Assembly (NCBI GenBank): GCA_004194705.1
Contig: SADC01001287.1
Span: 248,001 to 312,000, forward strand
Length of the DNA stretch: 64,000 bases
Origin: Ditylenchus dipsaci
Lineage: Eukaryota > Nematoda > Chromadorea > Rhabditida > Anguinidae
Reading direction: 5' to 3'
The translations under genes and the position numbers were made by a program. The notes beneath the pieces were generated by a model that saw only the letters and a list, made by a program, of their open reading frames with translations, was not told the DNA's origin and searched no databases. Shown here piece by piece: positions 17,314 to 62,204 of the stretch (positions within the stretch are counted from its first letter, which is position 1; every line of letters starts with the position of its first letter).

Positions 17314-18148
17314 TAAAGGAACGGCTAATATTTAAATCTGCTGCCAAAATTTGAATTATGCTGCCAAAATCTTTAATTCTGCTGCCAAATCAAATCTGCT
17401 GCCAAAAATTTGAATTTTGCTGCCAAAAATTTGAATTTTGCTGCCAAAAATTTGAATTTTGCTGCCAAAAATTTGAATTTTGCCGCCAAAAATTTGAATT
17501 TTGCTGCCAAATCCATTTTTCTGCCAAAAATTTGAATTTCGCTGCCAAAATTTGAATTTTGCTGCCAAAAATTTGTAATTTGCTGCCGAAATTTCTCGAC
17601 CTATTTCCACAGCCTCATCTTAGTTCCATGTCCATCATTTATGATTTTACTTGAGATAGTTGCACCAAATGCTATATTTTTAAACTACTGTGTGAATTTA
17701 AATTCTACCTACGAATAAGTTGTAAAGACGAGTTTTCTTTCTGATTTTATTAGAGATAATGACAATGCAAGAGACGTTCGTAACGACAACAACAAATCAC
17801 TGCATATCTTAACAAATGCATAAATTCAAACACCGAAAATTCACTAAGCTTGTGACGGTCGGAGCTGCGCAGGCATTGTTTCTGACAAATTCGAGATTCC
17901 AATGAGCAGACAATGCAATGCTAGCTAAAGAAAATTTTCGCTTGAAAAATCACTCATCATTTCACGATCTGACATACCTTGGCGGAATTCTTATGGAAAA
18001 GCAGCCGATTGAAGGAAATCGATCTCAGCTAAAAATTTCATTCTCAGTCACTTGGGCACTTTAAATTCTTTCTTTTTTACTTCAGCTTTGATTGCCAGCA
18101 AAAACTGCTTGTAGCACCATTTTGTCTCAATTGATAGTGCAAGGGAAA

Positions 18149-18284
18149 TTAGACGAAAGACTTTATTGGCATGGTCGGGCGACGAATTCTGAGCACAGCA
18201 GGACAACTAAAATTTTCTTCCTTTGTAGCTGCATTGATAGGTTTCGACAGTGTGCTTATATCCAACGATAGGCAACGATAGGCA
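18149..18284 (-). CDS. 3' exon of gene fragment carried by the element
   Basis: After a ggggctag acceptor, a minus-strand frame with AYRCLSLDISTLSKPINAAT continues to a TAA at 18,149-18,151. It joins in phase with the preceding exon (ends ..AGA CT, then T..). The residue mix is ordinary for a globular protein. It sits wholly within the array-TIR element, so it may be captured host sequence or a remnant of an element-encoded protein. Family unknown. Confidence 0.4.
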
Positions 18285-60500: not shown

Positions 60501-62204
60501 GCTATTGATATTCAATTTTCCGTTTGCACATGACGAGATGCAGAATACGGGGTGCGATGTTTTAACGATGAAATTCCACAAGCTAAAAGTTTGTGGTAAG
60601 AAAAAAGGGTAAAATAGTCGATGTCAAAAGGTAGCCGCAAAAGTTCCCCCCTTTAAAAGTTTTTTTCAATTTTCACGTTTATTTTTCAAGAATTTTTTGA
60701 CTATCGTGTAGCCCAGGATCTCAGCTTTCTAACGAGCTATCCAACTTTAGAACGAATTAACTTTTGTTTTTCTCATATTTTTTCAAACCCCTAAATTTTA
60801 CATTCTTTAAAGGGCCATTGCCGTCTCCGACAAGGGCTGTCCCCTGCCAATTCAAATTTTTTTCTTTATCCTTGCATTTACGTACAAATATTTCAACTTG
60901 GTTTCTAACTAACCTTACCTAAAATAAAATTCTAGGCCTTGTTTTGTTAGAAACCAAACTGAAAAATCCGTACAGGAGTTCAAAGATCGGGCAAAAAAAT
61001 TTGAATTGGCGGGGGACAATTCAAAACAGGTGGCAATGGCCCTTTAAATGATTCAATGGAGTTTGATATCTCGATAGAAAGCTGATATCTTAAGCTACAT
61101 GATAGGTTGAAATTTTTGAAAAAAACGTAAAAGTTAAGACGAAAACTTCATTTAAAATTAGGGGGCATTTTTCAGTAATTAGGAGGCAAAATTAAATATT
61201 ACCCCTTGAAATGTATTTGAAAAAGTGCATTTTGAAATTCTTGCAAAATTCTCATTGATATCTCAGTGAGAAACTCACTCTCAGTGAGAAAAAAAATTTT
61301 ACTCTCAATCAGTGAGGGCATATTTTAAAATTCCCATTCTCACTGACGGCCTGTGAAGTCAGATGTCATTCTCACCCACTCTAACTCACAGGTCCAAATA
61401 CCGTCCTCAGCAAAACACTGGGTTCATTCGCTAATAGGGTTTTAAGTTTTGAGTTCAAAATTTATTTTTTGTAACCCATCAAACAACATTAATGCAGACA
61501 TATGAGTAAAAAGTATTTGTAGTGCGTCAAAATTTTGGTTGACTTTGTTATACTGTAGATTTTTATTGACTGCCAAAAGTTATAAGTTTAGTTTGTAAAA
61601 AAAAAATCTCCAAAATTCGTGGAACACCGTGGGTCTGCCATATTTCACCTGGTTCCCCACAAAAATATCACAAAATATTACATTTGCAATGGTGGCGATT
61701 TTCTCGATAGCCTGCTTTCCATCTCGTTCAATGTGGCTTTCCAGAATAACTTTGAGTTGGTCGAGTGCACCAGTCACACGCATACACAGTGAATACATGC
61801 GGCCCAGATCTGCGAATCGGTTCCACTGTAGAGTATGGATACTTTCGCAAGCTCTAAAAAGTTTTACCTTCATCCTGACGATGGACTAGCAGAGAGCCGA
61901 ATTCCGACTGGAACAACTCCAAATGCTGACTAATCAGCACTTCGTTCAAAGTCTTGGCAAGCGGGTCTTGAGTAGAGTTTCTAGCTTAAAAATAAAATAA
62001 TTCTAGTTGTGAAGGCAAATTAGTTAAGCCACTCACATAGAGCTCACAGCGATCATGCTCCTCATTGATCCTGTTTTCCATCTGTAATTGAACAAATTTG
62101 TAAAATTATACATTTGTGTACTATAAAGTGCTATAAATTTTCACTATAAATACCTTTTTTAAGTACTCAGTGACAGTGTTAGACTGCACAAACTCAGTAG
62201 ACTC
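53301..62204 (-). CDS. CUL1: Cullin-1 (CUL1), 3' seventeen exons
   Basis: Scaffold of SCF ubiquitin ligases. Exons in transcript order: 62,154-62,204; 62,037-62,081; 61,868 to about 61,980; 61,682-61,809; 58,792-58,869; 57,976-58,005; 57,766-57,921; 57,544-57,716; 56,745-56,793; 56,520-56,666; 56,375-56,467; 55,855-55,938; 55,699-55,798; 55,609-55,645; 54,490-54,598; 53,403-53,545; 53,301-53,352 (stop). Almost all junctions join in phase; only that before 61,980 is unresolved. The protein follows human CUL1 from ESTEF (middle of the cullin-repeat region) to the terminal YEYLA, including the cullin homology domain and the neddylation motif IVRIMKMRK. Upstream exons for roughly 240 residues are beyond the window. 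One large intron (58,870-61,681) is packed with foldback repeats. No disabling change was seen, so this is probably the functional gene. Confidence 0.95.
53630..54075. other. CUL1 intron 53,546-54,489: repeat fragments
   Basis: Fragments with inverted actctattatagagtggg-type tracts (53,650; 53,860; 54,045) suggest a small foldback. The sequence taaagccaaccattcgagtt at 54,075 with cgacacttttttaacccaga matches the pogo-type MITE of 49,473, a truncated copy. Confidence 0.45.
54957..55080. repeat. Tandem ggacaaattttgtcc palindromes in CUL1 intron
   Basis: About eight units of cggacaaattttgtccggac shading into ccgggcaaattttgcccg. Each unit is itself palindromic. It resembles the arrays of the foldback elements, but no inverse partner array or TSD was seen, so it may be a solo arm. 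Confidence 0.7.
55609..56793 (-). CDS. CUL1: CUL1 exons: cullin homology domain, second half
   Basis: 56,745-56,793 [16 protein letters not shown]; 56,520-56,666 with [16 protein letters not shown]; 56,375-56,467 [19 protein letters not shown]; 55,855-55,938 [19 protein letters not shown]; 55,699-55,798 [20 protein letters not shown]; 55,609-55,645 [12 protein letters not shown]. These cover the RBX1-binding alpha/beta part of the cullin homology domain (HSGRKL.WL is its signature). SSVWPF replaces the more usual SG.WP. All junctions are in phase. Confidence 0.95.
55971..56222. mobile_element. Solo terminus of GGTRGTATTTAATTTTG family plus foldback, in CUL1 intron
   Basis: GAGGTGGTATTTAATTTTGA at 55,971 is the same terminus as 32,071 and 17,323, followed by a single ccctaaatttctgggcactt unit. 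Then ggtgacatcacacctcgatt (56,018) pairs with aattcgaggtgttatgtcac (56,198), a 200-base foldback. Confidence 0.6.
57330..57420 (-). other. tRNA-like sequence in CUL1 intron
   Basis: The minus strand has an A-box-like tagctcaatggc about 45 bases before a B-box-like gagttcgatttcc, then tgggagca. D-arm and T-arm pairings are weak, and the acceptor and anticodon stems do not form well, so this is a tRNA pseudogene or tRNA-derived SINE head rather than a working tRNA. It is the only tRNA-like copy in the window with both boxes. Confidence 0.5.
57544..58869 (-). CDS. CUL1: CUL1 exons: end of cullin repeats and start of homology domain
   Basis: 58,792-58,869 [20 protein letters not shown]; 57,976-58,005 [10 protein letters not shown]; 57,766-57,921 [20 protein letters not shown] then [15 protein letters not shown] and [10 protein letters not shown]; 57,544-57,716 [20 protein letters not shown], ending [12 protein letters not shown]. 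The last is the most conserved stretch of cullins ([20 protein letters not shown]). The insert between KRLV and the S-x-S-D-E-AE segment is one residue shorter than in human CUL1. All four are flanked by ..cag and gt(a/g)/gtttga sites. Confidence 0.96.
58235..58535. repeat. GC-hairpin foldback family copy in CUL1 intron
   Basis: Hairpin core aagccccctgcgcccccttc / gtggcgcaggggctt at 58,395-58,432, arms gtctaaggtatgtgggtgtg and gcgcactcacttaccttaga, and the gcatacatttgtatgcatcc hairpin. Flanked on both sides by the ttggtcccccaaggca repeat (58,203; 58,573), which itself is the outer edge of a larger inverted repeat around it (58,075-58,690). Confidence 0.7.
58870..59750. other. CUL1 intron, no further feature seen
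   Basis: AT-rich intron sequence with no repeat structure recognised. Confidence 0.3.
59755..60480. repeat. Foldback of cgcagatgcgacatttgcaga arrays in CUL1 intron
   Basis: The left array (59,755-59,905) has about seven units of cagatgcgacatttgcagac. The right array (60,215-60,475) has the inverse (gtctgcaaatgtcgcgt...). A TTAA MITE lies between them (60,007-60,205). Same architecture as the array-TIR elements; clear outer termini and TSD were not identified. Confidence 0.7.
60007..60205. mobile_element. Palindromic TTAA MITE
   Basis: TTAA/AGGACTATGATTTTTGCGC at the left, the complement ending GACCATGGTCTT/TTAA-type at the right. The inner arms gacacttctctttcgtct / agacgaaagagaagtgtc are nearly perfect. 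Same family as 33,280-33,479. Confidence 0.75.
60807..61047. mobile_element. TTAA MITE with a different core
   Basis: TTAA/AGGGCCATTGCCGTC and GGCAATGGCCCT/TTAA ends as at 33,280, but the interior (ttggtttctaactaacctta ... tgttagaaaccaaactg) is the foldback also seen at 18,713-18,885. Shared ends with a swapped core. Confidence 0.75.
61150..61205. mobile_element. Solo terminus of the GGGGTRRTATTTAATTTTG family
   Basis: The complement of 61,186-61,205 is GGGGTAATATTTAATTTTGC, followed inward by two cccctaatttt / gaaaaatgcc-type units. No left partner found. Confidence 0.6.
61682..62204 (-). CDS. CUL1: CUL1 exons: middle cullin repeats (5' end of gene in window)
   Basis: 62,154-62,204 [17 protein letters not shown]; 62,037-62,081 [15 protein letters not shown]; 61,868 to about 61,980 [20 protein letters not shown] and [11 protein letters not shown]; 61,682-61,809 [20 protein letters not shown], ending KIATIAN. 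Order and residues follow the second and third cullin repeats of CUL1. The acceptor of the third exon is uncertain by one base: the two candidate AGs give wrong phase unless the preceding donor is the gtggct two codons later. The next upstream exons are not in 62,205-64,000. Confidence 0.92.

Follow-up and report, generated by a model that had tools for sequence, protein, structure and literature searches.

A stretch of 64,000 nucleotides from the nematode Ditylenchus dipsaci (assembly GCA_004194705.1, contig SADC01001287.1, positions 248,001 to 312,000; hereafter the window) carries several transposon ends that share one 19-base terminus, followed inwards by a tandem array whose repeated unit differs from element to element. 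Such ends number more than 1,000 genome-wide and belong to one group of Mutator-like (MULE) cut-and-paste transposons of the Tm1/Foldback type. This large, Tm1-like MULE/Foldback group follows a newly seen rule: its tips and the layout of its arrays are fixed, and a 7-base core in the array unit is switchable. Judging from the sequences, the terminus probably functions as a common cleavage site and the core as a transposase-binding site, the cores changing in concert with the zinc finger of the transposase.

Terminus, paired ends and array layout

In the window (GC content 37.8%), the 19-mer terminus gave seven matches with up to three mismatches, against 0.23 expected in shuffles. An earlier note, made from the window alone, had proposed a genome-wide search with the terminus, and the matches are indeed many: in the assembly of 226,978,389 bp (1,359 contigs), the 18-mer GGGTRRTATTTAATTTTG with at most one mismatch was found 580 times in forward and 586 times in reverse orientation (1,166 in total), and its reversed control 7 and 6 times (13). 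The nine ends which that note listed in the window are real; three are exact to the 19-mer and three have one mismatch, but the end at 26,004 has three, and those at 17,323 and 34,139, with more than three, are ends of another type, GGCTAATATTTAAATCTG and GGATAATATTTAAAACTG. The start of the tip also had to be corrected: judged by the position of the 9-bp target duplication, the element proper begins at GGGT in most pairs, the leading fourth base before GGGT being flank in most of them (26,540 is an exception). The purine pair (RR) of the earlier motif turned out to be a marker of end identity, with GGGTGGT at one end (GG end) and GGGTWAT at the other (WA end; also GGATAAT, GGCTAAT and similar).

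Pairing was studied in 30 fetched loci (L001-L030, 28 distinct ends) and the window, eight loci being extended inward. Of these 28 ends, 21 were paired, six had no mate in the range read (L004, L019, L020, L023, L024 and L028), and in L026 the nested element was paired but the outer end was not. That nested element, with TCCCCAA cores and a 9/9 duplication, sits in the array of an element with GCCATAG cores, one dialect within another. Among 25 pairs the target duplication was perfect (9/9) in 15 and at least 8/9 in 20, compared with 0.3% of draws at 8/9 or better for mismated flanks; since mates were picked partly by duplication score, this rate is not blind. Most of the support that the earlier note had asked for is available, in the form of numerous matches, 9-bp duplications and MULE-coding copies. 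The expectation of an 8-9-bp duplication wherever both ends exist held in the window for 17,323/18,698 and 26,004/26,540 and failed for 32,072/34,139. The tips combine as GG/WA in 22 of the 25 pairs by script. By eye the number is 24, the two additions being L012 and the degenerate element of the window at 26,004, and L029 is the sole exception. In 20 of the 25 pairs both ends belong, by eye, to one core class.

The size of the duplications, mostly 9 bp, agrees with the 8-10 bp of MULE-type elements. The hAT, Merlin and P superfamilies make 8-bp duplications. They were rejected as a home for the group, which has 9-bp duplications and a MULE transposase (the genome was not searched with their profiles); the window elements 30986-35270 and 41250-44942, which do have 8-bp duplications, are members of other groups.

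The arrays were parsed in 51 distinct ends, 26 of which have at least four units; array length ranged from 0 to 16 units per end. In ends with three or more units, the unit of about 21 bases consists of the 7-base core and a linker of usually 14 bases. The third linker is short (9-10 bases) in 19 of the 26 ends, so that the layout reads long, long, short, long. The terminus bears the AT-rich half of a unit behind its tip, and the AT-rich half of the unit in turn continues the terminus. The core is nearly uniform inside an element and varies from subgroup to subgroup. Cores include GCCATAG, GCCATAA, GCCGTAA, GCCGTAG, CCCGTAG, CTGCCAA, TCCCCAA, CCCGCTA and CCCCTAA. Genome-wide, with at most one mismatch, the terminus joined to its first core was found 304 times for GCCRTAR, 95 times for CCCCYTAATT, 38 times for CTGCCAA (31 exact) and 32 times for CCCGTAG (13 exact; 12 of these 32 have GCCGTAG and hence occur among the 304 as well), each control giving 0.

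Across core classes, linkers of the same index are more alike than those of different index (0.316 versus 0.239 in the 26 ends); none of 1,000 permutations was as high, and the relation holds in 34 of 45 class pairs. The ends of the CCCC type and those at 55,971 and 61,205 have at most two units and lie outside this comparison. Long inverted repeats of short tandem units, the structural hallmark of Foldback elements, are present, although short elements of the CCCC class contain no more than one or two units. The earlier description of the arrays as unrelated is consequently wrong, because they have in common the unit of about 21 bases, the linker order and the AT-rich half that continues the terminus; for ends with at least three units, the arrays are diverged copies of one ancestral unit, an outcome which the earlier note had named as speaking against its own proposal. 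What survives of its "fixed terminus, swappable array" is that the cores change, whereas the terminus, the spacing of the units and the order of the linkers are passed on.

Core replacement, transposase and related families

For the interior of the short non-coding elements (miniature inverted-repeat transposable elements, MITEs), nine sequences were aligned. By eye, six of them share it, namely those with CCCGTAG cores (the window MITE at 26,004-26,540 and L004) and with GCCATAG cores (L007, L008, L014 and L018); the other three, L017, L019 and L023, do not share it over their length. In both classes the inner edge of the array consists of a core, a ATTTCTGAATTTT-like linker, a half-unit and then CTCGCTCGAAATCATG or near. 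This edge was compared in 20 rows, of which five are an unrelated repeat sharing CTTGCTC and L019 falls in neither class. The inner linker and the interior are kept in four of the five CCCGTAG rows and in nine GCCATAG rows, the GG end at 26,004 being disrupted there. The innermost half-unit is CCC in none of the five CCCGTAG rows (four distinct), and looks as if it had been left behind.

The coding DNA of L030 (CCCGTAG) and L027 (GCCATAA) is 66% identical over 2,134 aligned positions, and their GG ends differ at 0/18 tip, 3/28 linker and 9/21 core positions; for CTGCCAA versus CCCGTAG the corresponding counts are 0/18, 6/28 and 15/21. The GG tip differed at 0/18 positions in all seven element pairs compared. 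Within one class (GCCATAA), the window element 32,072-34,139 and that of L025, which are 78% and 83% identical in two long aligned stretches, differ at 203/1064 interior, 80/394 linker, 6/113 core and 0/36 tip positions (Fisher test of core versus linker, 6e-5), and a laxer core mask gave 11/134 for cores and 75/373 for linkers. Depending on the mask, the conservation of cores exceeds that of linkers by a factor of about 2.4 to 4. Another same-class pair, L003 and L011, with 0/63 core and 0/178 linker differences, is uninformative on this point. From these counts it follows that members of a class keep their cores, and that the core is replaced from one class to the next.

Candidates for the autonomous copy with a MULE-type transposase, which the earlier note had hoped for, are two full-size MULE-coding elements, both of which encode the MULE-domain DDE transposase that defines the superfamily. 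The L030 element (2,896 bp, 9/9 duplication) has exons that encode a finger (YECSVSRKKGCTCPAKL...H.DH), a MULE core and a SWIM-like end; its hand-spliced protein scored 33.8 bits with PF10551 (cut-off 27.6), SWIM and FLYWCH remaining below their cut-offs. The L027 element (3,127 bp, 9/9 duplication) contains all nine exon pieces with 59-79% identity to L030, and in both elements the gene starts at the WA end. The first part of the gene is retained in L013 (CCCGTAG), and only remnants of it in L017 (GCCGTAG), L003 and L011 (CTGCCAA). Among 24 protein matches to the transposase, the four best are Ditylenchus proteins (29-33% identity). Two other loci were considered. L054 was rejected as an autonomous copy of the group, because the MULE gene found there is that of a CGTTTCCCGCCC element nested in it. 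L070 lacked a duplication and matched none of the four Ditylenchus proteins, and its finger-like piece was weak (E 1.7e-4, search over 2.6 kb).

A genome search with PF10551 gave at least 115 matches, 150 of the 504 candidates having been scored. In the top 30 loci, inverted tandem arrays were read within 1.5 kb on both sides in 22 and on one side in eight, each family having its own unit, mostly of 14-17 bp. At least ten of the top loci have unlike tips, GGGACACGG or near and GGGTAC... or near. In the largest set, the unit is composed of a constant half, CGTTTG, and a variable half (ATCGAAAAC, TGTCTAAAC, AGTCCCGGC...). FLYWCH exceeded its Pfam cut-off in 8/8 cases, made up of related elements and an exon of the window. 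In the Mantel tests each unit was represented by one of its near-identical loci, and L038/L039 were omitted. The MULE sequence used for the L036 unit is that of L043, and L042 and L050 were included in the nine-family set of the partial tests only. In 13 families, unit distance tracks MULE-domain distance (Mantel r 0.57, p 0.0001); within clades, 19 of 5,040 permutations in clade I and 42 of 720 in clade II are the corresponding counts. In clade I, with nine FLYWCH/MULE families compared, unit distance follows FLYWCH distance given MULE (partial Mantel r 0.45, p 0.003), and FLYWCH is more diverged than MULE in 36/36 pairs.

A second lineage, with the terminus GGGCAAASCTTTTYCTTG, has 871 matches in the genome versus 3 in the control. 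Its duplications are 9/9 in L072, L077 and window element 46,455-48,426, 8/9 in L079 and 3/9 in L075, and it has two core dialects, GCCG-type and GCTGC-type.

Proposed mechanism and competing explanations

In the mechanism that we favour, the transposase would cut at the fixed tip, and its N-terminal zinc finger (FLYWCH/WRKY-like) would dock on the repeated core. When the specificity of the finger shifts, the core would be replaced site by site in every unit and at both ends, because only matched copies would be mobilised, and the linkers would stay put. Every core class would in that case have a transposase of its own, which the non-autonomous copies would follow. We further put forward, tentatively, that this may be a transposon radiation speciating by lock and key, in which a fixed tip and ordered docking sites are combined with a 7-base code rewritten as the finger changes, each dialect escaping the parasitic copies of its predecessor, with the same rule in at least two other lineages (GGGCAAA... 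and GGGACACGG/GGGTAC...).

Several observations weigh against the binding of cores by a co-evolving finger. The duplication is 7/9 or worse in five of the 25 pairs, and the core is not clearly shared by both ends in five (L005, L009, L010, L012 and L016). Of the ten parser classes, two are variants of GCCATAG (a frame-shifted one and one whose first core is mutated), and the value of 0.973 for core identity within ends is inflated, the parser admitting up to 2/7 mismatches. At the GG ends of L030 and L015, linkers differ more than cores (8/28 versus 4/21), and several WA-end comparisons are frame-shifted by indels. With regard to the transposase, the alignment of the first exon piece in L027 runs through a stop, upstream of a possible start; the FLYWCH domain of the group itself reached 13.9 bits in L066 (cut-off 23.6) and was absent from L067, so that 0/2 pass; the structure model of the finger exon was poor (mean predicted local distance difference test score, pLDDT, 49.6) and was discarded; and the core-transposase link inside the group comes from two full-size coding copies read. 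The statistical link comes from related families, with n = 9, short domains and units typed by hand from repeat-finder output. In clade I unit distance also follows MULE distance given FLYWCH (partial r 0.46), hence shared descent is part of the signal.

The main rival is concerted evolution by very short-tract gene conversion, in which a neutral core mutation would be copied among units and both ends without the core being recognised. Inverted and direct copies are natural partners for such exchange, which an excerpt of PMC3573991 proposes for Galileo ends, and it would accord with the high, if parser-inflated, core identity within elements and with the intermediate cores of some inner units (CCCATAG in 26004-26540). 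The linkers beside the cores, however, keep their unit-specific sequence and order across classes, so that conversion tracts would repeatedly have to stop at core edges, and within a class the cores are less divergent than linkers and interior, and with the laxer mask, too, less divergent than the linkers. We therefore regard conversion as unlikely.

The earlier note had itself offered two explanations, very fast turnover of the arrays and recognition of the terminus only, and both fit poorly. If independent subfamilies had each formed a new array by renewed amplification of one unit beside the conserved tip, the varying array length would be accounted for, but linkers would be identical and their order scrambled, whereas in classes with at least three units the order is shared; the MITE interiors, moreover, are homologous across two core classes. 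Such turnover is accordingly contradicted for the classes with at least three units, and very improbable overall. A transposase that reads the tip only, the cores being host-factor or promoter sites that drift by lineage, would agree with the unchanging GG tip in all seven pairs and with the many short CCCC-class elements of one or two units. An unrecognised array would not, on the other hand, keep its cores more conserved than its linkers; in the related families unit distance tracks finger distance after catalytic distance has been removed, and most pairs have one core class at both ends, which leaves this explanation improbable as well.

Elements of the window, known systems and significance

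The features of the window are collected in Table 1.

Table 1. Array-bearing elements and ends in the window (positions of the 64,000-nucleotide stretch).
Positions	Strand	Feature	Core or unit	Ends and remarks	Target duplication
17323..18698		Paired element, 1376 bp	CTGCCAA	WA end 17323, GG end 18698	9 bp, TAAAGGAAC at 17314-17322 and 18699-18707, 9/9
26004..26540		Short non-coding element (MITE)	CCCGTAG	Degenerate GG-type end (GGTCGT) 26004; WA end 26540	Flanks TTTTTTACT / TTTGTTACT, 8/9
26746..26827		Tandem duplicate of WA end of 26004..26540		Includes the end near 26,825	
30986..35270		Second-lineage element, own fixed terminus GGGCAAACCTTTTTCTTG	GCCGTAA/GCCGCAA	Hosts 32072-34139	8 bp, TTTCAAAG
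32072..34139		Paired element, 2068 bp	GCCATAA	Nested in 30986-35270	Flanks diverged, only 6/9
41250..44942		Third array element	AAATTCCGCCAACAT	Ends counted by eye	8 bp, ATTGAAAA
46455..48426		Second-lineage element, terminus GGGCAAAGCTTTTCCTTG	GCTGC/GCTCCC	Extra terminus 47945	9 bp, GTTTTTGAA
55972..56010	+	Solo GG-type end, one unit	ACCCTAA	Terminus match	
61165..61205	-	Solo WA-type end (GGGTAAT)	CCTCCTA	Terminus match	

Element 17323..18698 is 95-97% identical to those of L011 and L003 over long aligned stretches. The ends at 55,971 and 61,205 were also considered as a single element and rejected as such, for their flanks do not match. Positions 22630-30085 form a palindrome with arms of about 3.2 kb, mostly 97-100% complementary, around a centre near 26,350; its loop holds the MITE and the duplicated end. 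L069, a similar palindrome, was set aside, as its flanks are reverse complements and none of its coding matches was usable. Both palindromes may be either real inverted duplications or long-read assembly artefacts. The third array element contains a FLYWCH piece (within 44480-44659, minus strand; Pfam 24.9 bits, cut-off 23.6), an internal inverted repeat of 322 nt with 100% complementarity (41414-41735 / 44126-44447) and an additional array end at about 42,715. A Pfam search of ten open reading frames noted in the window found no MULE domain, and the only frame to pass was a piece of a cullin gene (56487-56846, minus strand; 39.2 bits, cut-off 33.2). A 406-bp unit is duplicated in tandem at 19869-20673 (97% matches), and three minus-strand reading frames are open across a 20-bp minisatellite of 15 copies at 50458-50766.

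The earlier note knew of no named family with this rule. Much of the anatomy is shared with Tm1 and the Aedes Muta families, yet searches of open-licence PubMed Central returned no printed account of core switching or of such elements in Ditylenchus. The following comparisons are limited to excerpts of the papers cited. Tm1 of Meloidogyne (Mutator/Foldback, Phantom subclass; PMC3169594) has 9-bp duplications, ends of tandem units in variable number, a FLYWCH and MULE transposase and mostly MITE-like copies; in the present group FLYWCH was below cut-off in L066 and absent from L067. Tm1 also has an inner, purine-rich Motif D, which is missing from its MITE-like class. Its two 7-bp tips are unlike (A1 CGGTTAA, A2 CCTACCC, complement GGGTAGG), as are the tips here. 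In contrast, Tm1 is described with one unit family, Motif C, mostly 14 bp (CGATTCAGTATCCGC) with small species differences, with 39 + 22 elements as opposed to more than 1,000 ends here, and the excerpt describes no core switching; the ends parsed in this study have units of about 21 bp with other, class-specific cores instead of Motif C. The Muta families of Aedes aegypti (PMC5225508) resemble the group in their 8-9-bp duplications, predicted FLYWCH fingers (13/14 families) and subterminal tandem repeats of 9-15 bp (10/12 long-ended families), but the excerpt describes neither a shared tip nor a fixed linker order with a changing core.

Galileo of Drosophila (P superfamily; PMC3573991, PMC3688188) has long ends, the internal repeats of which include several binding sites of the transposase THAP finger, and by analogy with this precedent the cores could be docking sites of a finger. 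A finger of the Galileo G subfamily failed to bind an N-subfamily end (PMC3688188). As superfamily, finger and repeat size all differ, the analogy is functional and does not imply kinship.

Whether Foldback and Phantom repeats are binding sites "remains untested" according to the excerpt of PMC3688188. The group described here offers natural code variants in which tip, spacing and linkers are nearly constant, so that the question of binding is directly testable. It also provides candidate fingers for two of its codes, and the related families add nine fingers whose array units are known. This material may be used to study the DNA code of FLYWCH-type fingers and the possible splitting of selfish DNA into non-interbreeding lines, and it bears on why Foldback and Phantom elements have tandem-repeat ends.

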